The notes beneath the pieces were generated by a model. The model had not been told where the DNA came from, ran no database searches, and was given only the letters and a program-made list of their open reading frames with translations. Positions 3,157 through 49,838 of a stretch of DNA of 64,000 nucleotides are shown piece after piece. Position 1 is the first letter of the stretch, and each line of letters opens with the position of its first letter. The DNA lies in assembly GCF_026210795.1 (NCBI RefSeq), contig NC_089456.1, forward strand, positions 126,501-190,500. The letters are read 5' to 3'. A program made the translations under genes and the position numbers. The stretch comes from Rhizophagus irregularis (Eukaryota > Glomeromycota > Glomeromycetes > Glomerales > Glomeraceae).

Positions 3157-3945
3157 AACATAAAAAATAGCTTAATATTGTTGCTTATAATTAATATATT
3201 TAGATATCCTTTGCTAAAAATAGCTATTTTTTTGATATGCTTTTGACATAGCTATAATATTATTTTTACATAGTTTTAATGCATTATGTCAACCATTAAA
3301 ACCATGTTATCTAGGCTTATAATTTCATGTCAAAATAATATCAAAAAATTACAATGATTTTGTAATTGATTTGTAATTATTTTGTAATAGTTTTATAATA
3401 GCTTTATAATTTATTTTTAATAAATTTATAATACAATTTATTGATTTGCAATTGTTTGCATAATAGTTTTATAATGAATCTGTAATAGTTTTTTAATTAA
3501 TAGTTACGCATACTGTTATTAGTCAAAAAACTACATAATTCTTCACAAAGTATATTTAACGTCCGTAGACGTCCTACCCAACACGTAAAAGTCCAATGTA
3601 CCTTAACAGCATTTCAGGGGTTCCTATATTTCAGTATAATAAAGATATTTTATTCTTCTATAATTTCTAGCAAATAGAATTCTAAAGCCAGTTCTACAAA
3701 AAAAAATTGAAACCCGATTAATAGTAGCTATCTAAAAAAAAAGTAAAAATGAACTGTTAGAACCTTTTGTTGAAATGCGTAAATTAAGAATTAAAAGACG
3801 AAGTTTCATAGGAGGTAGTCCTGTCTTTTGGTTCTTCTGCGTATCAGATTGGAAATGCATAACCTTGATTTCTATTTAAGGGTATTTTATAGTTTGGAAT
3901 ATTTTTTTCTTCATTCAGAAGCGCAAGAAGCCGTCAATGAAACTA
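3157..3945. other. AT-rich gap with short TTATAAT-type repeats
   Basis: Around 3350-3500 there are runs of the type TTTGTAAT/TTTATAAT repeated at short intervals. No gene or RNA was recognised. Confidence 0.4.
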
Positions 3946-3949
3946 AAAA

Positions 3950-4343
3950 GGAAATTCTGAAAGGTTTCGGCCAATCAAATCAAATGCCGAAAATGCCGAA
4001 AATAGGCCGAAACTCGGTCTTAATTTTGGCCAAAATTAAAATTCGGCCAAAATTATGATATTGTGTCACGTGACATTACACAAATTTCAAAAAAAGGAAA
4101 TTTTGTTTTCCAGTAAAATCGGAGAAATGTGTCGCACAAATGTTACACAGATTTCTACAAAAGGAAATTTACATGTCGATCATTATTCCAGCCAGAATTA
4201 TAGTATTAATGTTGGCCAATAATTTCGGCCAAATTTCGGCCTTTCGGTAAAAGTTTTGGCATTGTATAATTTCGGCAAATTTACTTTTAATTGCCTAAAC
4301 TTTCAGTTTTAAAAAGTTTCGGCCTTGGCCTAAACTACTTGAT
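3950..4343. mobile_element. Probable MITE, GGCCGAAA-rich, shared core with 44.7 kb
   Basis: The left end AAGGTTTCGGCC and the inverted right end AAGGTTGCTTGCC look like weak terminal repeats, and the flanks are rich in CGGCCAAA/CCGAAA words. The central part (about 4060-4180: TCACGTGA, then AAAAAGGAAATTTT, then TTCCAGTAAAAT) closely resembles the core of the element at 44518-44975. No clear target duplication was found, so the ends are approximate. Confidence 0.45.
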
Positions 4344-4554
4344 TTTGGCAAGCAACCTTAGTAAGATGGATTGGAAGAGTATAGGTAAGAGAGTATGTGC
4401 TATAGAAAGTATATGATTAGTAATACTATTACGAAGATGATTGCATGCTGAAAAAAGATGAAATTAGTTTGCTTACGCAGTCCAGTAATAGAGCGCAAGT
4501 GGGGTAATGCTAAAGTAGTATTGGAGATATCAGTTCTCCCAATTACCTGCGGGC

Positions 4555-5260
4555 TCAAAAGACCAGGACTGGTTTTTTTTTCAAAACTGGCTGTTGTTTT
4601 TTTATACGAGTATTGGCCTCATGAAAAAGGGAATCTTTCTCTGATAATGCCTTTTCTAGGCGAGCATTGGCATCTTGAAGGTGGTGGTCTTTTTCTGATA
4701 TTACTTTTTGCAACACCTCTATTATATCTTCCTTAGCAAGTTTTTTATCAAGTTCCATTACTTTATCTTTGATCTCAGTTCACAGACAATACTTCTTAAA
4801 TTATCATGCGGCCCTCAATCTCGTAACTTTGGCATTTCTACTGGCTTTTCTATCACTCCTCCCATTACATCCAAATCATGATATGTACGCTCTAGATCTA
4901 TGTCCTCCAACTTACCTTCCAATTTACGTATTTTAGTTTCAAGAAAGAATCTGGACCTTATCAGGCGGACGAAGTTTCGGTTTTCACAAAGTTAGCTCTC
5001 TCTCAGTATTTTAATATTGGATTTGAGCGATTTGATTTTAGCAGAATATTTGGCTTTGAGCTCAGTATTAGCTGTATTCAGCCGACTAAACTTATTGTTA
5101 AAGCCTGAACAGATTCCTTCACTCGCTCTAAATATATATCCTGCAGGTCTTTATAATCATTAGCAATATCAGAAGCAGTTTTGATGTTACCGCGCAATGC
5201 TTTCTCAAGTTCTGATTTGCGGATGCTATCAAGCCGATTACCCGAGGGTAGTGTTGTCAC
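4555..5260 (-). pseudogene. Coiled-coil protein remnants
   Basis: Two minus-strand frames, 4555-4758 and 5078-5260, encode Lys/Glu-rich heptad-like peptide (for example EDIIEVLQKVISEKDHHLQD and later YKDLQDIYLERVKESVQA). Between them the minus strand keeps coiled-coil-like composition. They resemble in style the coiled-coil leader of the Gag-like module at 9.1-9.9 kb, so they may be a worn copy of a related gene. No intact gene is present. Confidence 0.35.
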
Positions 5261-6056: not shown

Positions 6057-6185
6057 TTGTGGATTTTTTATTTATAGTGAAAAAAAAAATCTTTAGAGAT
6101 TAGCTACTAATATGATTACACCCCGCTTAAAACACATATTAGTTCCAGGGCTAGATACTTATCCTCCGCAGATTACAAAGATATC

Positions 6186-6656
6186 ATGCAATATCGTGAT
6201 ATGAAGTCTAAACCTTTAGCTCAGCTAAGTAAAAAATATAATATATCGAATAGTCGCTTATATCAAATTTGGAGAGGACAAGAGTTTAATAGGATTCAAT
6301 GGAATGATTTAGCAGTCACATCAAGTATGAATGTTATAGATAAACAGAATAAGGAGCACCAAACTGAAAGAGATTTTCAAAATAAATTTAATACTGCCTT
6401 TACAGCACTGGAAAACAAGATACACGATGCTGAAATTAGCAAATCTACTGATCCAGTTTCGGAAGAAAGTGCAAGTAGTAAGGCAAAAAAGACTGAAGGA
6501 AAGAAACAATTCCAAGGGGGTCAATCAATACCTGGAACAAAAAAAGAAATTATTTCACCTACTGACCCCTCTGAAGATGTCTTGGATTTGTATAAGAGAA
6601 CCAATAATACTTTAGAAAAAATTAAAGCATCAGGTCATCCTCTTATTTCCAAATAG
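6186..6656 (+). CDS. HTH-like small protein beside the Gag-like module
   Basis: A 156-residue frame whose N-terminal 35 residues (PLAQLSKKYNISNSRLYQIW) look like a helix-turn-helix of the homeodomain/resolvase type, followed by a Lys/Ser/Glu-rich, probably disordered tail. It lies about 165 bases from the protease-like frame of the Gag-like module and runs towards it (convergent). It might be a DNA-binding accessory protein of that element. Whether it is complete at its 5' end is uncertain. Not assigned to a known family. Confidence 0.4.
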   Translation: MQYRDMKSKPLAQLSKKYNISNSRLYQIWRGQEFNRIQWNDLAVTSSMNVIDKQNKEHQTERDFQNKFNTAFTALENKIHDAEISKSTDPVSEESASSKAKKTEGKKQFQGGQSIPGTKKEIISPTDPSEDVLDLYKRTNNTLEKIKASGHPLISK

Positions 6657-6821
6657 TTATTCGTCCTATTCAATCTGACTGCGTAAACTATTATAGTATC
6701 CTATGATTTCCAAATTCGATTGAATGCTAGAAAATAATGCCTTTTTGAGCTCTTTCATACGAATTGCTATATCCTCATAACTCATACAATTTATGCATTT
6801 TTTTTAAGTCCTTCTCACCAG

Positions 6822-7271
6822 TTAGACTAGAAGAATCGTAGATACTTGGTCCTGCTCCTCTTTTGGCAGATCCTTGACTACCGGAGCCTTGCTAAAGGTT
6901 AGGATAATATATGCTTTTCTATGTAACTTTATGTGGAACTGGTTTTTATTTGGCTCGAGAATACCTTGAACCTTTTGAATGTTTGACATACCAAAAAATA
7001 GCATTGGTTCTGTTTCACCATTATCAATACGAACAAAATTTCCAATGACTGTGACTGTCTTATCTTCTTTATCCTTCAAGGTAACTGGCACGTCTGTATA
7101 CCATCCTAATGAATCGGTAATATGCTTGGAATTGCCCTTTATGGCAAAATTAGATGGTTTATCAGCCTTCCATCCAAGCGCTTTGATTGCTGGATCATTT
7201 ATACCACCAAACTCACTGCCAAAATCTAAAAAAGATTCAGAAATAGTTAAGTCATTTATATTAGCATCCAA
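6822..7271 (-). pseudogene. Retroviral-type aspartic protease-like domain (fossil)
   Basis: The 149-residue frame starts with a Leu-Asp-x-Gly region followed by a compact beta-rich stretch (SKHITDSLGWYTDVPVTLKD, then GNFVRIDNGE) that ends in a hydrophobic strand before GILEPNKNQF. The layout, with an N-terminal catalytic loop, a hydrophobic core and a final Leu-Gly-like strand, is that of a retropepsin monomer. It lies downstream of the zinc knuckle, as expected for a Gag-Pro order. Family call by pattern only. Confidence 0.5.
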
Positions 7272-7602
7272 ATATTGTAAAGATGATAATCACTCATCTG
7301 ATTCTTTCGTTTCCTCTTCTTGAGCCTTTCGAGACAAGCACATTTTTCGTATTGGTGGTGAGAGTTTAGACAATAGCTGATCGTACGTTTCAGGTTGGCT
7401 AGATTCTAGAGGTGAGATTGCATTAGTATCACCGGTTAACTTATATGAAGCGCCTCTCGGTTCATTTACCTGTTTTTTTTTACCAGTGGGTCATATCCAA
7501 TTCATCTATTATCATTCTCATCATAACCACCCCACCATTTTCCTCACCATCTGAATCGGAGGAACTATAAGTGTAAGAGGCGTAAAATATGACCGAGTGA
7601 AT

Positions 7603-8289
7603 TTAGATTGATTGAGCTATTGGTCTTTTTGGACAACTTCCTTTGCTATGGCCCGTTTCTTCACAAATTTCACATTTTTGTATAAATACTTTTTTCTGAA
7701 ATAGATCAGCTAACTGATTTACATTATTCTGAGTTTCTTCAAGTCCTTCTTCAATCCTATCAAATCTAGCAGAATTATTGTTTCGCTGTGGACGAGGTCT
7801 TTGAAAAGGTTTTACAGGATAATCTGAGTCTAAATCTTCCTTACTTAATAAACCTATTTCTTTTAAGTATTCTGATACATAATAATTCTTGAGACCTTCC
7901 TCTGTTTTCAATGAAGATGGTGGACCTTTTGGCTGTCTAACTGGTTCAACAGTTTGTGGGGTAGATACTTGCTGAGCCATTTGCGATTGTAATTCTGTAA
8001 CTTTCTTTACTAATGCCTGGTTTTCAGTTTTTTGTTGTGCCAATGCATTTTGAATTGCTTTTTGCATATCTTCTAAAGAAATTCCTTGCTGTTGCGGGGC
8101 TGAAACAGGTGAGGGTTCATATATTTCTTGAGATGCTCGATTAGATACTAGAGGGTCAGGTAATCTATCTTTTTTATGTCTTGCTATTCGGCGTAATTCT
8201 ATCTCATAAAGCTTTTTAGCTAATTTATCCAATCGGCAAATGTTCACCAATATCCTCAGCTTTTTCAAGCCATGAGAGTGGAAGCGCAT
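7603..8289 (-). pseudogene. Gag C-terminal part with CCHC zinc knuckle (fossil)
   Basis: A 228-residue frame, rich in Gln and Pro, with a predicted coiled coil in the middle (SLEDMQKAIQNALAQQKTEN) and at residues about 205-218 the perfect knuckle CEICEETGHSKGSC (C-x2-C-x4-H-x4-C), the nucleic-acid-binding signature of Gag nucleocapsids. It lies just downstream of the capsid-like frame. Confidence 0.65.
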
Positions 8290-8373
8290 CTAAGAACTTT
8301 CACGTAATTCTTCAGGTCTATAGTTGGTCATCTTCCCCTATTCGTAATAATTTTCTATACAATTCATCTATAG

Positions 8374-8940
8374 TCATATTCCCTTTCTAATTGTTCTATA
8401 CATCAAATCCCGAAGCTCCTCCTCCACTGTAGGAAAATGTGTTTTTAGCCACCATATGGCTTGACCAAAACGAATACCAGCTACAACTACCGTAGTACCA
8501 TTATTAGCATTTAGTGCATTAACAGCAATATTAGCAGGACGACCATCTGCTATACGCCAATCTTCATTCCAGGGACTTTCTACAGCTTTCAACTTGACTA
8601 TTGCAGTTCCTGGTTGGCCAAAAGCTTCATTCAATGCTTGATTTCCTATTTGACCTGCATTTCGCCCATTTACTACTACTAAGTTAGCCTGCCCTGTATT
8701 ATCAAGTAAGTTTGCTAATTCCCAATTCTGCTTTGTAGTAATCTCTTCGTCAAACCATTCTAAGGCTCTTCCTCTCATATAGCCTTTTAAATATCCTATA
8801 GCTACTTCTCTTCCTGTGGGTGGACCTCCTGCATTATCTGCTGGATCTACCCCTTGATTTTGCAGATATAATCTTAGTTTCGCTAAAAAATCTGGAATAC
8901 TATCATCCCAGTCAAAAAATGGTTGTGGGATTCCTGCCAT
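8374..8940 (-). pseudogene. Capsid-like (retrotransposon Gag) domain (fossil)
   Basis: The 188-residue frame opens MAGIPQPFFDWDDSIPDFLA and carries the helical pattern of retrotransposon Gag domains: a first helix FLAKLRLYLQ, later AIGYLKGYMRGRALEWFDEE with the conserved Gly-x-Ala-x-x-Trp, and near the end FGQAIWWLKTHFPTVEEEL. This matches Ty3/Gypsy-type capsid domains. Continues in style into the zinc-knuckle frame. Confidence 0.6.
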
Positions 8941-9120
8941 GTTTATTTAATTTGGTGGATTATTCTGTAACGCTAAAATTTGTCCCTGCAAATTAAAATT
9001 ATTCTGGCACTCTGCTTGGGTCTTATTTTTCCATTTCTCATATCGCTCATAGAGCTTGTCACGATTAAATTCTAACAGACCTATATCCCCTCTATTTTGC
9101 TGTAAGTGATGGGCATTTCG

Positions 9121-9867
9121 CTAATACAGCAATTGTAAGGCAAATTTTTCCTGTAGCAATATACCAATACAGGTTCGCTTTCCTGTTATATTGTCTAACA
9201 TTCTATTTACTTGATTTCGAGCATTGGTCCGCAACTGATAAAGGTCAGCAATAACCATTTGTTTCACTCCTTCAGCATTTTGCTTTCGTATAATTTCATT
9301 ATTATGTTCAGCCTCTGCATCATATTGCCTTCGTTGCTCACGGACTAAATCCTGATGCAAATTATTCTCTTTTCGGTGAATCTGCCTTGTCGCCCTTTTT
9401 ATTTGATCAGCTAAGATTTCTCTACTTATTGTTGTATTATTCAGATAACCATCTATTGCATTTGCTAGCTCTGTGATGGTAGCCATTTCTATGTTAATAT
9501 TAGGATTATACAAGTCTGAAGAATTCCCTCGTTCTGGTGAATTTTTTTGTGATGAGATGGTTCTGATCCGGCATCGCAATTTCTCTACCTGCTCCTCAGA
9601 ATCTACTAACAGTACTCTCATACTAGAAATATGTTTTTCATTATCACGAATATCCTTCTTAGCTTGATATAGTTGCTTTTTTAGGCTGGAAATTTCAGAT
9701 TTTAGCTCTATTATTTCCTTTTTCGAAGTATTCTCAAGACGTTCTATCTCACCATTAAGAGTTTGGATTTCTTGTTCACAACGGACACATTCATGTTCCA
9801 GCTCCCTGATCTGCTTTTCATTTTGGCAGTTACTATCAACTTCTGCTTGCAATTCACTACGGAGCAT
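9121..9867 (-). pseudogene. Coiled-coil leader of the Gag-like module (fossil)
   Basis: A 248-residue frame. Residues 1-95 are a strong coiled coil (QIRELEHECVRCEQEIQTLN and on). After a Ser/Asn-rich hinge a second helical part begins MATITELANAIDGYLNNTTI and continues with charged helices. It lies upstream of the capsid-like domain on the same strand and probably forms its N-terminal assembly region. Confidence 0.5.
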
Positions 9868-9980
9868 GGTAGTTCTCCTCCTTCAGCTCAGCTTTATATT
9901 TTCAATACGTTCTTTCCGCTGCCAATGCAATGGTTCCCTTCCGAAATGCCATTCTTTTGCGATTATAAAAGAGAATCAGA

Positions 9981-10142
9981 ATGAGCCAACCACAAATCTT
10001 GATAGACCCTATTGAGATAAGAGAATTGAAAAAATATCATATTGCGTGGAATATATTATCGCCCAAACTGGCTATCATTCTAATCCCAAATCACAAGAAG
10101 ATGCGTGTAAAAAAAGAGGGGCACCAATTCTCCTTTAAGTGA
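9981..10142 (+). CDS. Small ORF of 53 residues, function unknown
   Basis: Opens MSQPQILIDPIEIRELKKYH and ends in TGA after a Lys-rich tail (NHKKMRVKKEGHQFSFK). It starts 113 bases from the start of the coiled-coil frame and is divergent from it. Composition is protein-like, not that of random AT-rich DNA, but no family was recognised. It may belong to the virus-like element. Confidence 0.35.
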   Translation: MSQPQILIDPIEIRELKKYHIAWNILSPKLAIILIPNHKKMRVKKEGHQFSFK

Positions 10143-10154
10143 ATGTAAAGATTT

Positions 10155-10397
10155 TTAGAAAATCAGAGTCGTACAAAATAATTTAAGCTGGCTCTCAGAT
10201 AATGGGTTACGCTTCCGTGATGTGAGACGAATCCATGCCTCATTTATTATGGAAGCTGGTAACTTGGCTAGCAATTCAGAATATGCTTGGTTAAATGCCA
10301 TTATATATTTATACATTGGCGCAAAAAAAATGGAATTCCATGAAATTTCAAAAAATAGACCACCAGGATCAGTTTTATTATAATACAAATAATACAT
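10155..10397 (-). CDS. Small ORF, function unknown
   Basis: An 80-codon frame whose second half (AFNQAYSELLAKLPASIINE, then AWIRLTSRKRNPLSESQLK) looks like a real helical, basic peptide; an internal Met at codon 33 is a plausible start. It lies between the 53-residue ORF and the 224-residue ORF in a compact cluster. No family recognised. Confidence 0.3.
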   Translation of the reverse strand: MYYLYYNKTDPGGLFFEISWNSIFFAPMYKYIMAFNQAYSELLAKLPASIINEAWIRLTSRKRNPLSESQLKLFCTTLIF

Positions 10398-10638
10398 TTA
10401 TGGCCTTTTTATAAATAAGAAGAGACACGCTAGATGGATCAAAAATTTATGTCACACATGCCTAGGCCATAAGGTGTGGACAATATATTATTTTATTAAG
10501 GCAATATTCAGGATCTGGGTTAAGGACTAATCTGGAAAATTCATTCACAATTATTATTCATATCTAGTCACATTATACAACTGGATAAGAGCTGGGAATT
10601 TTGTCAGAGAGTCACATGAGATGTATTCCCTTATACTG

Positions 10639-11313
10639 TTATACACATACATTCATTCCAATATAATTATCCAGTCCAAAATGCGAATATGCTAACCGGA
10701 TAATTTCATCACGTAGTTTATTCGGATAAGCAGTTACCTGTCTATGATAATATTCAGAAATTTCAATCATTTTTACTGATACTTTGTGGAATCTTACAAA
10801 TAATTGAATTTTCTTATCTTTTACCCAATCGCCACCTAAAAACTTCTCCTCATCAGTAGTACCATCATTTCTCAGCACATTCCAAATTTGAGATGCGAAT
10901 GATGCAGGTCTCTTCTTGTAACTCCTCCAAGCCTGTTGGATAACTCTTACATTATTAATTAAGCGATTTACAATCCTTTTCTTAATTTCATTTGAATGTT
11001 CATAAGTATAATTATTCAAGCCTTTTCTGAATATAAAACAATATGTTAGATAAATCTCATCAACTCTATCAGAACTGAGCGATGATACACTCTTTCGGCT
11101 TAGCGCTCCTCCTTTTTTCACATTCTTTCGTATAGGATTAGAATATGCAAGATACTTTTTAGTGGATTTAGTAATACATTCATTCAGATGCTTATTAGCA
11201 CATTCGATGGTATTTTCGTGAATAATTACCAAGGAGTCGCATACAGTGCAATAAATATGAAATGAGCGTCTCCCAGCTTTAAATTCCCCATCTTTATATG
11301 ATCTTTCAATCAT
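10639..11313 (-). CDS. Unknown protein with Cys/His cluster and IQ-like motif
   Basis: 224 residues. Residues 20-46 carry C-x2-C and later a C..H..C cluster (YCTVCDSLVIIHENTIECAN, then HLNEC), a likely zinc site. Around residues 120-136 is VRVIQQAWRSYKKRP, which resembles a calmodulin-binding IQ motif. The rest is helical and basic. Its start overlaps the stop of the 59-residue ORF upstream by four bases. Uninterrupted by introns, unlike neighbouring host genes. No function is claimed. Confidence 0.5.
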   Translation of the reverse strand: MIERSYKDGEFKAGRRSFHIYCTVCDSLVIIHENTIECANKHLNECITKSTKKYLAYSNPIRKNVKKGGALSRKSVSSLSSDRVDEIYLTYCFIFRKGLNNYTYEHSNEIKKRIVNRLINNVRVIQQAWRSYKKRPASFASQIWNVLRNDGTTDEEKFLGGDWVKDKKIQLFVRFHKVSVKMIEISEYYHRQVTAYPNKLRDEIIRLAYSHFGLDNYIGMNVCV

Positions 11314-11489
11314 CTGGATAAATCAATCTTAGAAAAGTATTTTGGGTTATTTTCAAGAAGTGTCTTAAATGGATAACGAACACGGGAACACCATATTTCT
11401 GGTGTTTCACCACTATACCTATATTGCAGATTGTTTAACGCCTGCACTACTACAGGATTCAAACCATTATAGTCGCTAGATTTAGCCAT
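11310..11489 (-). CDS. Small ORF of 59 residues upstream of the IQ-like ORF
   Basis: Opens MAKSSDYNGLNPVVVQALNN and continues with LQYRYSGETPEIWCSRVRYP. Protein-like composition. Its TGA overlaps the next ORF's ATG (ATGA). No family recognised. The tight spacing recalls compact viral or mobile-element genomes. Confidence 0.4.
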   Translation of the reverse strand: MAKSSDYNGLNPVVVQALNNLQYRYSGETPEIWCSRVRYPFKTLLENNPKYFSKIDLSR

Positions 11490-11499
11490 TTTACGGATA

Positions 11500-11590
11500 T
11501 ATGGAGTTTATAGCAATTTATAGCTGTTTTAGTGATTTTATTGATTTATAGCTGTTTTAAAGACTTATAGTGATTTATAGCAAGTATATT
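11500..11590. repeat. Short tandem repeat of TTTATAGCTGTTTTA type
   Basis: About four imperfect copies of an 18-24 base unit around TTTATAGC(A/T)(A/G)TTT lie just upstream of the small ORF at 11489. Possibly promoter-proximal low-complexity DNA. Confidence 0.5.
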
Positions 11591-11949
11591 ATAATAAAAT
11601 ATCATATTCATTTTTATTCGATTGTTTGGGTGAAAACAGATTCATATTTTTTCTCATGATTAACAGGCGACATCACTCCGGCCAATTTGGCTAAATTAGA
11701 TCTGAGACAATATAACGGCTAAATTAAAAAATTCGTATCACACGAGATCTCCCTAGCTCCTCGAAACTTAAATCACGAGGAGTTACAGATCAGCCAATCA
11801 GATCTCGCCTTTGATCTGCAGGAGAATAGAAGCGGGTAGCAGTTCATCATTTATAGGATTTAAAAATAATTGATAAGTGTATACATTGATTTTATTTGTA
11901 GAAACGATAAGCATACATGACTAGATAATGTTAAAACATGGAAAAAACT

Positions 11950-12062
11950 TCGGCAAGTGTGACCAAGGTGGTCACAGTTGAGTAAAAATTTGATATTCAT
12001 CAAAATCGGAAAATTTTCGGTAGCTGTGACCATGGCGGTCATATTTGAGTGAATTTTGGCAC
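11950..12062. repeat. Duplicated hairpin unit GTGACC-n-GGTCA
   Basis: Two copies of a unit of roughly 70 bases. The first contains the perfect hairpin GTGACCAAGGTGGTCAC and the second GTGACCATGGCGGTCAT; each is followed by a GTTGAGTAAAAATTT-like tail (ATTTGAGTGAATTTT in the second). Non-coding. Origin unknown. Confidence 0.55.
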
Positions 12063-12237
12063 AGTAGCCTTAATTGTTTCGATTTCAAACCCCGTCTTCT
12101 CACATATACACTCAAGCACATGCATGTTAAAAAATAATGAAACTTTATTAAATGCTTTTATTAGTTATAAACCTTGAAATCGTGATATTGATACTCATTA
12201 CATCATGGATACTTAAATTTCGATTTCGTATAACCAA

Positions 12238-14325
12238 CTAATTTTTCCTTAATTTTTTTTTTTTCGGAGTTTTTTGTGTATCAGGGAGGTTATCCGCCTC
12301 TGATTTAATTTCTTTTCGGTTCTTCAACCGCCTCTTTAACCCTTCATTACTAGAAGAATCTATGTTATTTATAGATTCAAAACATCTTCTGATACGTAAC
12401 TAAATAAAAATAAATTATATTAGATATAAGTTATTAATTGATGAATCAAAATTGAATTGGGAATACCTTCGCAACTAGCATATCGTTCACCATGGTAATT
12501 AGTTCATCTATCTCATCCAATTTTGCCGGAATTTTTGTAGAAGGATATCTGCGTAGTCGACAAATAGATCCACATGGAATGTCCATGACTAACTGCTGGA
12601 GATATTGACCTGGAATAATAATAAATAAAAGAATATTTATTAGAAGAGAAAAGATAAAACTCTTAAAAGATACTATTCAAATAAGAGGTACAGTATTTTA
12701 CCGGAGTGAAGGAAGCCTACAATTTCTAGTTGGAGAGATATTACGGAACTAAGTTTGAACTTTTTACTTTTTGGGCTAGCGTATCTCGCATCGTTTTTGG
12801 TAGTTTCCTTAATCCATCACTCAAGTACTTCGTTCCGTCTTCTCCATCCCATAATCTACCTTCTTCGCTTATTGCAAACTCATCTGGTGTCCCTAATTCC
12901 CGTACCATCACACTTACGGCCAAGAATCTTTCTAACTTCCGAACTTTTTCTTCCCTTATTTTTTCGTTGCCCTGAAGCGCGAGAGCAACCTTCACCGCTA
13001 AAAGAAATGGAAATTTCATTAAAAAATTTTATATCTCTATATCCAATAAGCACACTTACCGTATGAATTCTGAATTCACCACATCTAAAAGACAACAGTC
13101 TACTATTACGCTCCAGATATTTGTCTTGAACCAGCCCTCTAAGTGTGAATTAGTATAGTCATTAGGCCTAAGTTCATATCGTGGAAGCCTGTAATAACAA
13201 ATTTTGGTTAGATAATGTAAAGATACTCGCAAAATGCTATCAATTACTCACAAATGAGAGAAAACTTCGTGTATGTAGTGATAGTCGAAATCTCTCTGCG
13301 AGTCATAAGAAGGTAAATCGATACCAGCATTGATTAACTTACGTAGACCTTGAGGGGTTTTCTAGAGGACACGATTGTAACATAATGATTAATATCGCTA
13401 CGCAGATAGTAATAGTAATTGATAATACTCACTTCTCGGTAGCGTAAAAGAAAGTCTAGTAATTTATCATCCACTTGTGGTTCCGGAAGGATATTATATG
13501 TATTAATGTGATGCCTGTCAAGATCATTGAAAAGATTCATAATCGTCTCATCGCTTGTATCAATTATAAAGCTGTGCAAGTAGCTGATAGCAAAACTTTA
13601 TAGATTAGTTGTGATTACAGTATAATAAACTCTGTACATTACTTTAGCTTAAATTATTTACCTTTCGTATTCTAAATTTAGTGTGTACTCGTAGAGAATA
13701 TCCTCTGCAAACTTTCCAGAAGGTAACTTCCATTTGTTCTCTGGACGTATCTTATGGTATCTTTCTGAGTATTCTGCTTTCATCTTATTTATTTCTTCGA
13801 TAATTAACCTGCTTCCCTGCTTGTCCCGTTCAGCTTCCACATTGACCTCATCATCATTGTAATCAGGAGTCTCTTCATCGTCACCACCATCTACACGCAC
13901 AGCGTCACCATCCACGTACTCATCAAACGTAAGATTCTTAAGATCTCGCTTATCACTGTCAGTCCCATCACTGTCTGTGTCTGTTTCTTCGTCACTTTCG
14001 TTTCTTATGGTTAAGGGAACAGAGGAACTTGAAGATAACATTTGATATTCGGGTGTTCGCGGGGCTTGAACATTACGGGCCTGTTTTTTCTGCAACATAA
14101 AATAATTAGTTTTGCCATTTTCCAACTTTCCGACTAAACGTAACCCATCTGTACCGTTTCATTAACAGAGCTTCTAGCAATGGAACCAATTCCTAAAGAG
14201 TTTCCCGACAACGAGTTCCCTGATAGTGTCGAATTGTGGATGATGATTGAGGAACCACCACCTGTTACGCTTGATTTGCGTTTCTGTTCCCAATCTTTGG
14301 CACGTTTTTGGTCAGGTTTAGAACC
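12238..14325 (-). pseudogene. Spliced lineage-specific family gene, frame disturbed
   Basis: Eight exons can be placed by splice signals: about 14157-14325, 13662-14094, 13433-13583, 13252-13361, 13060-13188, 12702-12997, 12467-12609, 12238-12399. The protein begins Lys/Ser-rich, has a very acidic stretch (ESDEETDTDSDGTDSDKRD), then a conserved-looking part (KLPSGKFAEDILYEYTLN; DLPSYDSQRDFDYHYIHEVF; LEGWFKTNIWSVIVDCCLLD; GTKYLSDGLRKLPKTMRDTL; IVGFLHSG) and ends in a basic tail. The splice phases fit, except that the reading frame changes twice inside exon 12702-12997 (near 12905 and near 12755), so the gene is either decayed or has a missed intron. I read the style as one of the large expanded Glomeromycete families of unknown function. 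No first exon was found; the SINE-like triplet lies just upstream. Confidence 0.5.
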
Positions 14326-14390
14326 CTAGCAAAGAAGACTCGAGTTAGTGATATTCTTAACTAGCAATGTCACTCCCATCTGATTCTATC

Positions 14391-14640
14391 CCACTAGGTC
14401 AGCGAGGTGCTTATAAGCACTTGGCCTTGAACATAAGATAACCGAATTGGGCTGTCTATGCCCTGGTGGGACCACTGCTAGGTTAGCGAGGTGCTTACAA
14501 GCACTTGGCCTTGAACATCAAATAGCCGGATTGGGTTAGCAACTGGGCTATTAGTGCCCCGCATTGGTTTTGTGGCTCAGCGAATATACATATATATCGG
14601 CCTTGAATGACAAGAGCCGAGCAATCCTGGACCCCTGCCA
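14391..14640 (-). repeat. Three SINE-like units in tandem
   Basis: The phrase AGCGAGGTGCTTATAAGCAC, followed by TTGGCCTTGAACAT, occurs at 14401 and again, with one change, 84 bases on; a worn third copy starts near 14576. On the minus strand each has GTTCAAGGCC, which fits a pol III B box, and copy two has TAGCCCAGTTG about 30 bases upstream, which fits an A box. This suggests a tRNA-derived SINE. The 150-residue frame at 14495-14947 overlaps it and is not called as a gene. Confidence 0.4.
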
Positions 14641-15422
14641 CGCCACTTATTTTTCGTTCCCATTTCTTAAAAAAAATCCTTACGTTCCTATATCTCTTAA
14701 GAAGAGCATCAGCCTTTCTCCTTCTGCATACTTGCTCGTCTTTGTCACCAGCTATAAAGTCGAGGCACCTGATATATTGATTTACTTTCTTATCGAACGG
14801 TTCAAGATCGCATTTTTCTAAAAAATCAATAACATCCCAGGATAAATGTTTTTTCGTGAAATAATTCATAATTAACTTCAGACATTTATTTCGCGTGAAA
14901 ATATAAAAAGAATGACCAATTGGATTACGATGTACTTTCAAAGTCACATGACTGATCGTATCGCCTAATTTTTGGAGATATCCTAATTTTTGGAGATATT
15001 GACTACATTTTTAAGATTAATATTATAATGTGTAACTACTTCGAAAATATTTGAAAACGAAACCTTTTATACCATTCAAATGCTTTAACATTATCTTTAT
15101 TGACACCTATTCCGTATTCAAAGCATTCTCCTAAATTATAAAATGCAAGAAATGTATGATGCTATCAAAGAGGGAGGGAGTACGCGGATCCTAGGCCATT
15201 TAATGCGAGTCCCAGCATCAAGTTATTTCTTCGCTCTCTCACACTTTCTAAAAATATCTACAGCTAATTTATTTCTATATCAATTGCTAATTACGAGATT
15301 CTCATAACAATGCTCTCTTTCTACACTAGATTTCTGAAATAAATTATCCCACCAATGTCTACAGGATTTTTGTCACGCAGATTATGTAAAATAATATTCC
15401 CCGTAATGAAACTTCTCGGGGA

Positions 15423-15886
15423 TTAAGTAATTTCGAATCTATGGATAATTCGGGAGATTAACACTGAGGTAAAATAATAAGAAATGCAATATTTAATATT
15501 TCCAATTCATACTTACCATGATTCATTTTCACAACATTCCATTCTTCCTCATATACAAGAAATTTATTGCTTAATTTTTTCTGAGTTATCGCCGTTACGA
15601 TACTGCGCAAAGTTTCAAGAATTTGGCACGTGAAGATGGTTATTATTTTATTGCCAGAAATTTTATTTGTTATACTGCGCCAAATTCCTGGGGCACATAA
15701 TATAGTTTTACCAATATAAGTAAGATTTTTCGGCAGGGGCGCCCCGGCTGAAATTATGGTCATGTGATTTATTTCTCTGTAGTATTTTACTGCGCTGTCT
15801 TGCCACGTGCCGGCAATCGTGATTTTCTCGGCGAGGATCAAAGTGCCGATATAAAACAAGAAAAGAAATATGCCCGCTTTGTACAT
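15423..15886 (-). CDS. Small secreted protein, unknown
   Basis: Two exons, 15517-15886 and 15423-15463, joined across a 53-base intron (GTAAGT to ACCTCAG), give 136 residues in frame. The first 19 residues (MYKAGIFLFLFYIGTLILAE) form a typical signal peptide, cleaved probably after Leu-Ala. The mature part is basic and of mixed character with a few Cys (Cys at TILCAPGIW and TIFTCQIL). No domain recognised. Such small secreted proteins are candidate effectors in mycorrhizal fungi, but that is an inference. Confidence 0.6.
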
Positions 15887-16435
15887 CTAAAGGGTCGGGA
15901 AAATGGTTAGTATCATGATGTTATGTTTCATGAAGTTAGCCGAGCAATAAACCAACTTACTTTATTTTTACTTTGCGGAAAAAATAGAATTAGTTTGATC
16001 AGAAATATTAACGGTGATTATTGGTTAGTTTGATTATGTTTTATAGTTCCGCTTAATTATTTGCTTATATTTGCGCAAGCAGTTAAAAGGGTTCACTATC
16101 TGGGCCAGCTCCTTTTATATAAATCGCAAGATCGATTTGGAAGTGTCCTTTTGGGGGAAATTACGTAATAATTTTGAGAATATGCGAGAAAGTTTGAGAA
16201 TAAATTATTTTGTGCAATTACTTGTTCCCGTGATATATGTATAACATTACCGCGCATTTATTTATCAAGCTACAATTTTAAAACTTGATCGAAAAAATAA
16301 TAGCACACACATTGCTTCACACAATCTCATCATTCACTCCATGCAAAAAAATTATAAAACGTCTGGTAAATTTGCATCATTGCTTTATTGATCAAATTAC
16401 TTGAGAACATTCACATCGCTTATAAATTCCTTCTG
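15887..16435. other. Intergenic, nothing recognised
   Basis: AT-rich spacer upstream of the secreted-protein gene, containing its presumed promoter. TTTTATATAAATCG at 16112-16125 is a TATA-like box but lies some 230 bases from the start codon. No other feature seen. Confidence 0.4.
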
Positions 16436-17604
16436 CTACTTCTTACACCTTTTGCAATACAGATGTGAGTGATGATTGCATTCTTCACAAACCTTACAAC
16501 CATGCTTCCATCCCCTAAATATATGCCATTTTTCAAAGTAGTTTTGCCTTAGCAAAGCGCCTTCCAGCTCCTTATAAGCTGTACTATCCTGATTGTTTGG
16601 TAAGAAATTCGGCATGATATATTGTATTAATATAGTCAAAAAATTCTTGTGTGACCAAAATTTCATTAATTCAGCCTTATGTTGCACAGTCCTATTATTT
16701 TGGTTCTGGATACTGCGCATTTCAGGTGATCGGTCTCACATGACTGGCATATGCTACGATCGCGAATTTGAATTTATTGCTTGAAGTGAAGCAAGTAAGA
16801 CAATATTCTGTTCCATTTTTATACCATTCGCCATGTAATCCATAATTTCCATGTTTTCCATCGCAAATAGGACATGGTGAGCTCCACGGCTGAGGTGATG
16901 CAAAATTATAATTATCAATCCCTCTAAAACTATTTCGGAATTTCAAGTATGGGAAGTGCTCTAAGACGGATTTGATAATTAATTCTGGATCGGGTCTGGC
17001 TTCGAAGGTGATGGGCCCTTTTTCTGGCTTTGAATTTATAACTTCCGATTCATGTACTTCTGATAGTTGCCATGGCTCATTTCCAGTTTCTTTTTTATAT
17101 CTTTTGTATAATTTGGAATGAATCTTATCTGTCAAAATACTTGGTAACCCAGTTAATTTGGCATGCCAATCCAGATAATTGGCGGTTAGTATTTTAACAG
17201 ACTCAGTCATTTTCCTTTTTATATAACTGCAAACAATTTAAATCCCTTTTTTCTCATATAGACCTATTCATTCGAAAAAAAGATTAAAATTCCCAGACTA
17301 TTGTAAAGCAATGAGACTACACAACTATCTCAATTTCACGCTGTTCACATTTAATAAAGTAAGATCCTGCTTTATACCTACCTTCTATTTCTTCATCATC
17401 ATGACCTAATTTGCATAATGGGCAGATATAGTCCTCTGATGTCTCATCAGTAATCCTATAATAATCGAAATTTTCACTACTACATTCTCTATATAGATTA
17501 GGATATTGATCCAATATCTTGTTGCAAAAATAGGAATGATCATAAGCTGGCTTAGGTTGGGATGCAAATGATACACTTGCTTGAAACATGTCTGATGAAA
17601 TCAT
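16436..17604 (-). pseudogene. Zinc-ribbon tail of the replication module (fossil)
   Basis: Three minus-strand frames (17604-17317, 17210-16722, 16720-16436) share the same style: a helix around YPNLYRE or FPYLKFRNSFRG, then a C-x2-C with a following His (YICPLCKLGHDDEE; PCPICDGKHGNYG) and a C-terminal Cys pair (YCLTC; CKVCEECNHHSHLYCKRCKK). Such C-x2-C..H..C modules follow the catalytic part in UL52-type primases. They are probably the C-terminal nucleic-acid-binding part of the replication protein. Confidence 0.45.
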
Positions 17605-17855
17605 TTCTGGTGAAGCATTTGGCTGAGAGAATGCTGGTACTTCAGCTGGTATGGTTTGAGATGCATTTACGATTTTTTCGCTAGTTATATGACCATGCTC
17701 AACAGTGGGATCAGAGCAGTTGTGTCACTAGTGATCACGTTTAAGTGCCATAGTATTTGGGATAGAGCGTTCTTGGTCAAACTTAAGATTTTCAGCTTCT
17801 TCAAGATCAAGATTCCGGGAAGTAGCAACCACATCAAAATCTGTTTCCTTGATAA

Positions 17856-18737
17856 CTAATGCTTCAATCCTAACCTCATTGCGGACTTTTTACGGTTTCC
17901 TATAACACCTCGGCTCTCATCCATTTTTATTAGCTGAAGAGAAGCGCTGGTACTGGCTATAAGACTACAAAGCTTTTCAATAAAGTATCTCGCAGAAAGG
18001 CGTTTCTGATGCTCAACTTCAATGAATGTTATTACAGCAGGAGATTTGTCGATTTTATAAGAAACGACATTGCTATCCCATTCACGATGACCCTTTATTG
18101 CTATAGGTAAGTTATTAGGCCGAGCACTAGCAAGTTCTGCCCGAATATTTTCACGACCTGATGGGCGAAAAAGTTCATTAGAATTTTTTTGATAAAACAC
18201 AGAAACAATATGACGAGGACAGTCACGAATTCGATAAAGCATTTGCGCAAGAGCCTCAACATGAACTGGAGTGGTGATGTTTGTAATAGCTATAACTATA
18301 TCAAAATGGCCTGTAACCTCAAATGATATTTCCGCCTCCACTGTATTTGTGTAAGCTACACAGTCAAGCTCACCCCAAGCAACATCAATATTAGAGAAGT
18401 CTTTTTGTCTCTGCTTCCCATCCATATTCCCATAATATGCACGGGCTTTAACAGGAGAATTGTCAGATTTAAATAACTTAGATGCTTTTTCTACTAGCGC
18501 TCTAACCATCACTGCTCCAGTAGATACGAATGTTACACATTTGCCCTGCCTTAAAAGATCATATCCTATTCGCATAGCTTCAGCTCTGCTATTTGGATCA
18601 TAAATAAATTCAACTGTCTCGCCTATACGAGGCTGATACTTATTATCAACTATGCGAATATTTTCACCATGATAAGTCTGGAGAAAGATTAGTGTTGATG
18701 TATTTGCAAAAGTATCCATGGCCAAAACATATCTCAC
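17856..18737 (-). pseudogene. UL9-like helicase, C-terminal half (fossil)
   Basis: 293 residues. It carries features of the second RecA-like lobe of origin-binding-protein helicases (Herpes_ori_bp family): FVSTGAVMVRALVEKA, then the YYGNMDGKQRQKDF and WGELDCVAYTNTVEAEISFE region, and ALAQMLYRIRDC near motif VI with its Arg. It follows the Walker-A-bearing frame at 18771-19295. Confidence 0.6.
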
Positions 18738-18770
18738 AGATCTTAGTACATCACGTATTGCGTTCTCAGA

Positions 18771-19295
18771 TTATCGTGCATTTGTATCGCTAGACATTTG
18801 ACGCATAATGGTATTAGCTTCATCAAGAATAGCTACAAATGGACGGGCTGTAAACTTGATACAGAAAAGACTCTCAACCTGTACTATGATAATATCCCAT
18901 TCATTTATAGATAAGTCTCCTTGTATATTTTGATAATTGCAAATTTGAAAATCAGATGCTTTTAGCTCATCAAGTTTCGTTTTTGATTCATTACTAAAAG
19001 ACTTTCGGTAAGAAACCCAGATATAACATGGCAAAGAAGAGAGATCATATACCTTATTTTTCAATGCCATAATAATCTCTCTTAATGTAGTGGTTTTCCA
19101 TGTTCCTGGAGGAGAACGAATAAGTGTTATCATTTTCTCAATACCCAAGAAATCGGGATATACTTCTGGAGCATCCTTTAATTTTTCTACATTAATCATT
19201 GTCTCTGATAATTCTACAAGGGGGCGTGGATTTGATATAGCATCACCTATTCTTTCAACTATTCCTCTCTTAGGTTTTGCAGAAATTTCGATCAC
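18771..19295 (-). pseudogene. UL9-like helicase, N-terminal half (fossil)
   Basis: 174 residues with a P-loop-like motif around residue 60 (Ser-Pro-Pro-Gly-Thr region followed by TTLREIIMALKN), a strand-turn YIWVSYRKSFSNESKTKLDE (motif Ia-like) and FVAILDEANTIMRQM, a DEAx-type Walker B. This is the first RecA lobe of a superfamily 2 helicase of the origin-binding type. Confidence 0.6.
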
Positions 19296-19650
19296 TTTTC
19301 CAAATGCTAATCACTTATGATCTGGTTTATAATTTTTCTGCCGATAGCATTTGAGTACAAAAGCAAACACATTCAAGAAAGCCATATAACTGATCCTTCT
19401 CGTGTTTGATTTCACAAATAGGACATGCTTCATATAATTGGGCTTGAAAGTAGACAAATCCATTCCCAATTTTTCCGATCTCAAGCCATCCATATTTTGC
19501 GATAACTAAGCTGGCTCCGTTACTTAAGGTGGTTTCATCTTCGATAGGCTGAAATTTCTTCTCTTCTTTCTCAGGAGAAAAGGTCCATGGCCAGATTTCA
19601 GAATAATTAGATTTAGGTTGAACTAAATAATCTTCTAGTTTGCGATATCC

Positions 19651-20385
19651 TTATTTAACTGAAGAAATCGCAGGCCTTTTAACTCTATCTTCCTTTGCCG
19701 ATCCAAGGAGCCGGAGACTAAAGCGAGATTTATAAAGTCCAATATCGATAAACTTTGAGTATGGTTTTCCAACCTTATCAGCGACTTTTTCTACAAAACC
19801 CTTAAGATCTCTATAGTCAATGAAACGGGCATAAGGATAGATAATATGCCAACTGCATTTATTATCATTTGACGAACTGACTAACACAAAAGCACCTAAT
19901 ATTGCAAAATGCTTTAAATCAGTATTTATAATATTGACGCAGGCAATTAAAATTCTGGATAATAAATCTTCGCGAGAAATTTTATATCTATCTAAGGAAG
20001 AGAGTTCAGGGTTCATAAGATCGGGCTTTTGCCTCGCATCAATGTTCAGAACCAGATGAAGAGGCAGACTCCCATCAATACATTCATGAGTATCGGGTAA
20101 CCCATAAACTTCGGATGGGTGGTTGACAACTGTAAAACCCTTCTCTGCCACTCGAACTATATATTTTAAATAAATCTCTTCAGGATGATAGGCGCCTAGA
20201 AGAGAGATATCATTTTTATTATTGGATAGATATTGAAAGTATATATGATTATTATAACCAGGCTCAAAATCGAGGTCCGCTAAACCAGAGAAAAGCCTGG
20301 TTGCTTTATTTATTATTTTAGGGCTAGACCCTAGGAATTTCTTTTTTTGCGCAAGCATGACAGTATATGGGGACGCCCATAGCAA
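19651..20385 (-). pseudogene. Archaeo-eukaryotic primase-like protein (fossil)
   Basis: 244 residues. Motifs of the AEP superfamily in order: a hydrophobic strand leading to LHLVLNIDARQ (metal-binding Asp region, about residue 110), SSNDNKCSWHIIYPYARFID (the Ser-x-His signature, about residue 180), and FSLRLLGSAKEDRVKRP near the C-terminus with the nucleotide-binding Arg. The pattern is nearer to UL52/NCLDV-type primases than to cellular PriS. The first nine or so codons come from the MITE that lies across its start. Confidence 0.6.
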
Positions 20386-20758
20386 AAGGGGGGAATGGGA
20401 TAATTCCGTAATTTTAAAAAAATCGCAATTTAAATCACGTGATAAATTTGGCAGATCATCACTTAATTGTGAAATAAATTGACTTTCGGACCTTTTTTTT
20501 TTATCTAAAGCTAAATTTTACAGGCAATTTACTAAGAGTATTGATTTTCTTTTAATAAGTTTATGTTGCTTGTTAATTCTATAAAAGTAAAATGCAAATA
20601 ATAAGAAAATTTCAAAATTAAACTTTTTTACTAATATATTATTAATAAAAACCCATATTTTCTTAATAATTAGACTAATAGACATATAATTATAATAAAA
20701 TCTCAAATTTGAATTTTTTGGCCTATCCCCCCTTTTTGCTACGGGCGTCCCCATATAC
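20363..20758. mobile_element. MITE with about 38-base inverted repeats, TA-type target
   Basis: Left end GTATATGGGGACGCCCATAG, inverted right end GTATATGGGGACGCCCGTAG, followed on both sides by CAAAA and a G run. Length about 396 bases, AT-rich interior, no coding. Target is likely TA, but the palindromic GTATAT end makes the duplication ambiguous. Sits on the 5' edge of the primase-like frame, so it inserted after the replication module. Confidence 0.7.
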
Positions 20759-21140
20759 AAGAAACTAGTATAAAATAACAGAGAAACTAGCAAAGTTCAA
20801 AATAAAAAATGTAATATGTATGACTCAAAAACGAAATAAAAAAGTATATGCCATTTTGACCTCTAATCAGATTACTAGCATAAACATGCAATAAATATAC
20901 TAAATAATACACCAAAGCAATCGATGCAAAGATATCCTGAAGTAAAAACTATACAGGAACAGGGTCTAGAAGCCAAAAGCATGGCAAATTTAGGTGACCC
21001 AGATGTGCAAAATTATATATAGGAAAGAGAGAGATAAGTTTGGCGCATCCGGGTCACTATATGATAGGTAGGAAAGAGGGTGGGAAGGCAGAAAGGTTCA
21101 GGAGAATACACAAAAAAAGGGCATGAAAGTAATATAGCCT
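20759..21140. other. AT-rich spacer
   Basis: No gene. Contains short A-rich stretches and one AAAAAAGGG run. Nothing recognised. Confidence 0.4.
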
Positions 21141-21144
21141 GAAC

Positions 21145-21480
21145 CAATTCGACACTCCGCATGTGCCTCACTCAGCAATCAGAAAGGACATATAAGAGGC
21201 GGGATTGCAAGAATGGGCATAAATTTGGCATTTCGTGCCTCATCCTCGGCAATCAAAATGGTCAGCTTAACTGGGATGTTAATGGCACAACATCGGCACT
21301 TTGCGCCTGACCGGCAATCAAAAAGTGAGTGAATGGATTGCAGTACATCTTTAGCAAATAGATGGATTGCAAATTCGGCACTTCGTGCCTCATCTGGCAA
21401 TCAAATAGGCTGGCCATAATAATGCCTATCACACCAGGCCCTTGAAAGTTACTCAAAAGTTACTTGAAAGTGACAGAAAA
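21145..21480. repeat. Four spaced hairpin repeats (GGCACTTCGTGCC)
   Basis: Units of about 30 bases, of the type CGGCACTTCGTGCCTCAT and then GGCAATCAAA, occur at about 21151, 21227, 21294 and 21376 with different spacers of 35-55 bases. Each has an inner stem GGCAC/GTGCC; two also have an outer stem GATTGC/GCAATC. The last is followed by AAAGTTACT-type direct repeats. Non-coding. It has the look of a spaced array, but the units diverge too much for a CRISPR. Confidence 0.6.
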
Positions 21481-21879
21481 GTGCCTGGAACTGGCAAGGA
21501 ACTGAAACACATGACCGGCGCAGTAAGACACAGTAAATTTCGTTAATTTCAGCCAGCACTATTTCATATTTTTTTTCAAATATTTGGGACGCAATATCTT
21601 GGCATACAGGTATCCGATCCATGCGATCTTGACATCATTGGAAAGCTCTCAGCGTCCTCTTTCAAACGACTATAAAACCGCATAAAACCAATCACAGGAA
21701 GCCAAGATATTCCACCTAAGGATTAGCCAGAAATTATGCCATAGTGCTGGCCAAAATCTGATTAGCAAATTAACTGCGCTACCCGATCATAACATGATTT
21801 TTAGCAATCAATGCTGGCCTAAGATCTTGGCTTACAAAAAGATCCACAGAAGAATGAAAACAAGCGATAGCTGTGGTAA

Positions 21880-22020
21880 TAAAAAAAGGATAAAGCAATA
21901 AAATCAAGCAAATATCTACAAAGCAATAAAAAGGCTACAGAGTAATAAAATCAAGTGGATAGCAATAAAGTAATAAAAAGGCTACAGAATACTGAAAACA
22001 GTAACTAGGTAACAGTTTAC
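21880..22020. repeat. Degenerate tandem repeat around AATAAAAAGGCTACAGA
   Basis: AATAAAAAGGCTACAGA occurs twice and AGCAATAAA / TAATAAAATCAAG words recur at short spacing. Non-coding. Confidence 0.5.
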
Positions 22021-49151: not shown

Positions 49152-49838
49152 ATGGAGTAGTATTTTATTTATAATTTTATTTACCACATATTCTTTCACA
49201 ATTAATCATAAGAATTGAAAAATATATACCTCTATTAGATTTAATACAAATTACAAATCTCTGTTATGGCTAACTGCGGGTAGTATTAAATTTATCAACT
49301 AAAATGACTCACTAGATTTAACCAATCAAATTTTGGTCAAGTGACGTAGTATTGTGAGTACGTCATTGGAAATCCCATATTTTATGAAATGTTTATAAAA
49401 TGGACCCAAATTTCAAATTATAAAACCTTATCTTCTTCCCACGAGATACCTGCAGATCGTATAAACCTTTCGCCTTTTACTAAAGGTTTCCGTGTGGGTG
49501 TCTCGGTGCAGTGGGATATGTAAATTTTTTGAAAAAAAAAAATTTCTTCGGAAATTTTTTTATTTAGAATTATTAGCGGGTTGGGAAATTGGGAAGGCTG
49601 TGAAAAAAAGGGAAACAAAGGAATCTCATTGTAATTTTTCCAAGATCGATAAGATTTCATTATTTCATTGCCACAACTGCTTTTTCGGAAATATTTAAAT
49701 AATTATAAAAGTGTAACAAAATACTATTGTTTGCCAAGCCCCTTTTTCCGTTAATAAAAACTATATAAAGTGGTCTTTTTTTTAAATGCAATATAAATAT
49801 TCTCTCGTCTGTGTAAATAAAGTGGCGCAGCTAAGACA
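49152..49838. promoter_or_regulatory. Upstream region of surface-protein gene B
   Basis: Mostly non-coding. AAAACTATATAAAG at 49757-49770 is a good TATA box about 70 bases before the start codon. Frames at 49418-49698 on both strands overlap each other and are not supported. Confidence 0.45.

Follow-up and report, generated by a model that had tools for sequence, protein, structure and literature searches.

A decayed element and its better-preserved relatives

The window analysed here is a 64,000-nucleotide stretch of the Rhizophagus irregularis genome (C28:126501-190500; genome of 146.7 Mb in 32 contigs), and between about 3.8 and 22.0 kb it holds a large, virus-like DNA transposon in decayed form, with a retrovirus-type capsid gene. 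The block at about 4-22 kb is richer in G+C than its surroundings and carries two sets of genes, both on the reverse strand. The first is formed by a retropepsin-like protease gene (6798-7424; 77% DNA identity to a better-preserved copy on contig C5, and aligned by hhalign to the gypsy protease) and a gag gene in three parts: the end of the capsid domain with the linker and CCHC knuckle (7603-8289; tblastn matches in 11 of the 24 loci fetched for comparison with the open reading frames, ORFs, of the window), the capsid domain with an insertion of about 100 residues (8374-8946; matches in 20/24 loci, fold predicted for its relative P0002), and an N-terminal coiled coil (9121-9882; 86% identity to locus L028). 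The second set comprises a UL9-like origin-binding helicase in two frames (17856-19310; Herpes_ori_bp E 8.9e-10; 92% identical to the C5 copy) and an AEP-like primase gene with its tail (19327-20517), the C5 relative of which matches the poxvirus D5 primase domain. A small dispersed repeat of separate origin probably sits at the 5′ end of the primase ORF (about 20360-20517), since the first 54 or so residues alone match many scattered places. Outside the primase lies the right terminal inverted repeat (TIR; 20753-22009, found as C28:147727-148509 in the TIR search), 75% identical to both C5 TIRs and lacking about 95 bp of its outer end, including a palindrome. The original prediction, made from the letters of the window, of a Gag-like module and a primase/UL9 set without reverse transcriptase (RT) is borne out.

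The window copy aligns with C5 in blocks, with gag and UL9 both split over several frames and the equivalent of C5:1999393-2008457 gone; no ATPase, integrase or left TIR was detected in it, and 11.6-15.1 kb has no match in any fetched copy. Because 17737-20296 is 92% identical to C5 and the remaining long blocks 71-83%, the copy may be a mosaic. Integrase, packaging ATPase and TIRs, of which the window copy retains little or nothing, had no place in the original prediction, and the link to Polintons was therefore overlooked.

A better-preserved relative is the C5 unit of 30,692 bp. Its two TIRs, 1,414 bp long and 99.4% identical to each other, reach outward to 1995404 and 2026095 and terminate in AGTAG...CTACT, and GGATT stands on each side as a 5-bp target duplication. 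From one end to the other it is composed of a TIR, the primase, the UL9 helicase, two ORFs that have no significant Pfam match, one ORF of 262 aa and a kinase-domain ORF; then coiled-coil and zinc-ribbon ORFs, short ORFs, a 306-aa ORF, Gag, the protease and an opposite-strand ORF; and finally a coiled-coil protein that by eye has a membrane segment at its C-terminus, an opposite-strand A32-like ATPase, the integrase, two more opposite-strand ORFs, of which the first is by eye a zinc ribbon and the second weakly F-box-like, and the second TIR. Its ORFs of at least 450 aa are Gag, the helicase, the kinase-domain ORF and a coiled-coil ORF. The identity of the two TIRs suggests that this insertion is young, unless conversion keeps the arms alike. 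Neither an RT motif nor a motif of family-B DNA polymerase (PolB) was found in the unit, and no direct repeats were found at its ends except the palindromes themselves (E 1e-20 or better).

A TIR search placed paired inverted copies around other UL9 loci, giving nine pairs (paired by eye) of 19.9-52.4 kb; the lengths of the C6 and C1 units are minima, as their outermost ends are unmatched. Within these nine TIR-bounded units UL9 was found in nine, integrase in eight, gag in six and ATPase in six, with gag and UL9 together in six; of the genes searched for, the C22 unit (19.9 kb) has UL9 and primase only, and the gag-bearing units are about 30-43 kb long. An exact 5-bp duplication surrounds six of the seven end pairs read (GGATT, TATGT, AGTAT, AATTA, AGAGA and TATAC), the seventh, C23, having a damaged end and no duplication. 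These duplications mean that each whole unit was inserted as one: the better copies are single insertions, and insertion has happened repeatedly in the past.

In the large family a near-perfect palindrome spans the outer 60 bp, with a DNA fold of -26.8 kcal/mol (z -14.4) in C5. Across 12 further ends, five pair perfectly over 30 positions, four fall short by about one pair (by eye), and three are clearly damaged or shifted (L048, L053 and L054). With the damaged ends excluded, nine aligned ends (seven distinct rows) are 98.5% paired, against 21-43% when slid, and two pairs covary; the covariation is only modest evidence, as the aligned rows are related copies.

The broken state of the window copy, its undetected integrase, ATPase and left TIR, and the unmatched 11.6-15.1 kb would suit two independent fossils, a piece of an LTR (long terminal repeat) retrotransposon and a piece of a DNA virus or transposon, adjoining by accident, as the original prediction had allowed. 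We searched the genome for gag, UL9, primase, ATPase and integrase, and compared the spacing of matches with shuffles to uniform random positions, on contig sizes that were partly estimated; all counts are among the matches listed. The matches used were 141/150 for gag, 148/150 for ATPase, 97/103 for integrase, 29/33 for UL9 and 34/65 for primase, after dropping second fragments of one locus and primase matches that were short fragments or covered the 5′ repeat only. ATPase lies within 10 kb of gag in 85/148 cases (shuffled mean 3.0, maximum 8) and integrase in 51/97 (mean 2.2, maximum 7), while 114/141 gag matches have an ATPase or integrase within 10 kb (mean 4.7, maximum 13). UL9 is within 5 kb of primase in 24/29 cases (mean 0.05), and within 50 kb of gag, ATPase or integrase in 23/29 (mean 4.5, maximum 11). 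Chance spacing of the modules is rejected by these shuffles.

The joint copies at constant spacing that the original prediction called for also exist: six places (C5, two on C2, two on C9, and C6) have gag downstream of UL9 in the same orientation and 18.8-21.4 kb away, the other spacings being 31 kb on C30, 29 kb on C11 (a weak gag match) and 9.5 kb in the window. This recurrence of order and strand, the six TIR-bounded units containing both genes and the exact duplications around whole units refute an accidental neighbourhood of two fossils, to which we attach practically no probability. The proposal of one capsid-bearing DNA element thus stands as far as the unit itself is concerned, by its TIRs and duplications; copying by its own primase and helicase, the other half of that proposal, we infer.

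Gag, protease and two further families

The best structural matches of the structure predicted for P0002, a relative of Gag, are Gag capsids. Sequence support for Gag is weak, and its profile gave coiled coils as top matches among solved sequences, and no capsid. The window protease aligns with the gypsy protease (hhalign probability 57, E 1e-4), and proteases of other families match Asp_protease_2 (E 1.1e-8 in L038, and 0.001) and the gypsy protease at 96-98% probability; the protease profile found nothing useful among solved sequences. By fold and profile, then, Gag and an aspartic protease, a feature of LTR retrotransposons, are found together. In P0174, an NCBI record of 1056 aa, capsid, CCHC and protease matches follow in that order, each below the Pfam cut-off; of four relatives scanned, two have CCHC and protease and two have neither. 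Relatives of Gag comprise 52 proteins, those named coming from Rhizophagus, Cetraspora, Acaulospora, Gigaspora, Diversispora, Paraglomus and Glomus, and a second set of 36 proteins adds Entrophospora; all of these genera we take to belong to Glomeromycotina. The integrase family is far wider (2313 proteins, the best 120 of which were listed), and in P0103 a DTG aspartic protease and an element-type integrase share a single chain.

The integrase matches rve in three families, at E 4e-9 and 7.6e-9 above the cut-off and at 7.9e-7, just below it, in C5, and matches solved integrases at E 6.5e-6. Pox_A32 matches three proteins of the large and third families at E 3e-8, 3.8e-6 and 9.7e-6, all above the cut-off.

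These families were separated by splitting 100 of the 150 gag matches by identity into 28 of the window type, 30 of a 12-kb family (which includes P0174) and 42 of a third; short, fragmentary and outlying matches were dropped. Four of those dropped (C28:902869, C9:5211609, C11:1422988 and C10:2200024) are within the identity range of the 12-kb family, and each has a PolB match about 3 kb off. Gag of the 12-kb family is 40-45% identical to window Gag (30 matches used). Upstream of one such gag lies the C-terminal part of a PolB (DNA_pol_B_2 E 4.3e-6, 26.3 bits against a cut-off of 25.8), and, with short or duplicate PolB matches dropped, PolB is within 10 kb of 27/30 gag matches of this family, in 20 of these 3.1-3.4 kb upstream; the corresponding counts are 1/28 for the window type and 1/42 for the third family. 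The TIR pairs of the 12-kb family, again paired by eye, span 11.95-12.3 kb in 11/15 cases and 5.6, 9.6, 9.8 and 25.9 kb in the other four. Its termini are AGTAGTATG...ATACTACT, and matching flanks of 5-7 bp were seen at nine of ten pairs read (6 bp in five; none in C18). An rve integrase accompanies Gag, protease and PolB. In the third family an rve integrase was found in L038, the one locus scanned, with a similar ORF in two more. Leaving out the 12 weakest ATPase matches, an ATPase is within 15 kb of 38/42 third-family and 19/28 window-type gag matches, among the matches listed. One kind of Gag-protease module is therefore combined with at least two replication modules, PolB in one family and primase/UL9 in another.

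A gag gene might be expected always to travel with RT, and the original prediction would have failed in that case. In 20 gag loci we examined a 10-kb stretch reaching from about 2 kb upstream of gag to about 8 kb downstream, and RT was present in one, L032, where a gypsy-like RT lies on the opposite strand about 5 kb away; neither an RT motif nor a relative of the L032 RT was found in the other 19, and constant association with RT is rejected. These 19 loci also speak against gag-pro being a passenger, inserted once from a retrotransposon into an ancestral Polinton and then copied along. In favour of a passenger, Retrotrans_gag matches are plentiful in the genome (150 scored of 306 candidates), but the gag-pro reading frames have stayed long and uninterrupted in families that have diverged, something one would not expect of a passenger without function, and we regard this origin as very improbable.

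Relation to Polintons and the proposed capsid

Polintons end in AGT...ACT and duplicate 6 bp of target. The elements described here share with Polintons/Mavericks the rve integrase, AGT...ACT-ended TIRs and target duplications of 5-7 bp; the 12-kb family further shares PolB, and the large and third families the A32/FtsK-type ATPase. They differ in having Gag and a retropepsin-like protease, a double-jelly-roll capsid and an adenovirus-like protease not having been recognised, and in the large family PolB is replaced by an AEP-like primase and a UL9 helicase. The PolB motif was absent from 938 ORFs of the window and 24 loci in a motif scan, and one PolB query gave no match inside the nine TIR-bounded units. 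No adenovirus-like cysteine protease had a Pfam match among the C5 proteins scanned, a profile comparison not having been made, and a search with PF04451 was silent across the genome, as were its controls. A passage of PMC4028283 gives Polintons as 15-20 kb, against about 30-43 kb for the large family.

Judged by genes and ends, the 12-kb family has the Polinton replication and integration features that we tested for; the window-type family, with no PolB found in its units, is Polinton-like and not a strict Polinton. With Ty3/gypsy LTR retrotransposons the elements have in common the Gag capsid fold, CCHC, the retropepsin-like protease and a retroviral-type integrase, and differ in the TIRs instead of LTRs, the DNA-type replication genes and the unit in which no RT was recognised. 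The UL9-type helicase, a feature of herpesvirus-derived elements, recalls Teratorn, in which herpes-type replication genes also sit in a mobile element; however, here the enzyme is an rve integrase and not a piggyBac-like transposase, no herpesvirus capsid gene was recognised (no capsid or terminase had a Pfam match among the C5 proteins scanned, and no search was aimed at them), and the size is about 30-43 kb, compared with 180 kb for Teratorn (PMC10175614). Polinton-like viruses are described, in a passage of PMC11071308, as having PolB swapped for other replication modules, AEP included; their capsids, in contrast, are double-jelly-roll. On the sequence evidence, the element is best filed as Polinton-related with a Gag-type structural module.

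On this basis we consider it probable that the window contains the decayed copy of a large Polinton/Maverick relative in which, in effect, retrotransposon gag-pro genes stand in for the double-jelly-roll capsid genes of Polintons. That Gag assembles into a capsid and that DNA is packaged in it we infer. The element would be copied as DNA: the UL9 protein would melt the repeat ends, the primase would start DNA synthesis, and the palindrome of the outer 60 bp might fold back, so that hairpin-primed copying without a terminal protein could follow. Gag would build a shell matured by the protease, the ATPase would pump element DNA into it, and the integrase would insert the linear DNA. We see about an even chance for the fuller proposal, that these are integrated double-stranded DNA viruses in which an A32-like motor fills a Gag shell with DNA and a retropepsin matures it, the main capsid having been swapped between two unrelated virus lineages and PolB exchanged for a herpes-like helicase and primase with self-folding palindromic ends.

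Several points weigh against the Polinton relative with gag-pro as outlined above. The capsid case is based on the predicted fold of one member (mean pLDDT 61); Retrotrans_gag was found in just three of eight relatives (E 0.014-0.043) and not in C5 Gag, and hhalign of Gag with gypsy gag gave 36.6%, over the N-terminal part only. The structure model of the protease failed (pLDDT 41; fold unused), and the window subfamily has no Pfam protease match. The primase match is marginal (E 0.007), and three of the nine TIR-bounded units have no gag match. In the motif that we take to hold the third catalytic acid, the C5 and C2 integrases have D (IDRY/VDRY; read by eye in L023:6973-8208 and L028:7079-8215), the other three compared having E (VERF, VERY and AERA), so that the former may be impaired. 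An ATPase lies within 15 kb of 1/30 gag matches of the 12-kb family, among the matches listed, and DNA packaging is therefore not universal as drawn. Relatives of Gag, integrase or ATPase in IMG/VR were pattern matches, none confirmed.

The near absence of an ATPase beside 12-kb-family gag and the weakly F-box-like ORFs, which suggest an intracellular life, would also fit a single transposon that never leaves the cell, its Gag and protease serving in nucleic-acid binding, complex assembly or suppression of retrotransposons. Against such a role stand the Gag-Pro order within the 1056 aa of P0174, the retention of the module in families that share about 40% identity and in more than one genus, several in all, and the A32-like ATPase near most window-type and third-family gag matches. 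We hold it to be rather unlikely, though the least so of the alternatives.

For the Polinton relative with gag-pro, the wider interest lies in the capsid. According to PMC7805220 (2021), the Glomus Polinton still had no known capsid gene, and no description of Gag in Polintons was found in the titles, abstract openings and passages of the open-licence literature. Gag is a strong candidate for the missing capsid of this fungus's Polintons, and with its own protease gives a testable answer. If it is one, reverse-transcribing elements and double-stranded DNA elements could trade capsids, DNA may be packaged by Gag, and some of the uncharacterised repeats in R. irregularis, 24% of the genome in a passage of PMC8647823, may be virus-like.

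Other features of the window and its relatives

The remaining element remnants in the window are mostly on the reverse strand. At 3801-4779 lies what is left of the gene for the coiled-coil protein whose C-terminus holds a membrane segment (counterpart C5:2020425-2021312), with DNA identities to C5 of 97% at 3801-3915 and 92% at 4409-4467 and an ORF at 4555-4779; beyond it no ATPase or integrase was detected, and 3801-3915, considered as an ATPase remnant, was rejected as it matches the end of the coiled-coil gene. An opposite-strand gene with a helix-turn-helix-like stretch (by eye) follows at 6111-6656 on the forward strand (tblastn 50% over 54 aa to L025; matches in 3/24 loci), and similar opposite-strand ORFs are present in L022, L023 and L028. 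Remnants of a gene upstream of gag are found at 10639-11507 (tblastn identities of 56% to L028, over 43 aa, and 60% to L027, over 25 aa), and the replication-side coiled-coil and zinc-ribbon genes at 15149-17559 (DNA blocks of 71-79% to C5:2008457-2010920; 74% protein identity to L042).

In the C5 unit, L042:128-1498 encodes a protein-kinase domain (Pkinase E 6e-16), and L041:6571-7356 has by eye the look of a Gag capsid C-terminal lobe, with no Pfam match. The opposite-strand F-box-like ORFs at L035:4469-4984 (E 1.6e-4) and L028:8940-9443 (E 0.097), both below the Pfam cut-off and found in 12-kb and large units, are possibly genes aimed at host protein turnover. The ATPases at L023:6083-6985 and L028:6235-6783 are on opposite strands and 39% identical, compared with 89% for gag and 93% for integrase in the same two copies, as if the ATPase had been exchanged.

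A palindromic, foldback-MITE-like (miniature inverted-repeat transposable element) repeat of 0.55 kb is located at 1124-1676 of the window and also about 1.1 kb outside the C5 unit (C5:1993794-1994341). A 158-aa ORF at 36411-36884 with an RT motif, but no Pfam match, was taken as chance. Host-like genes of the window are a protein kinase (35451-36329) and the exocyst subunit Sec6 (54065-56110), and a U5 spliceosomal RNA gene is found at 49437-49558 (81 bits).

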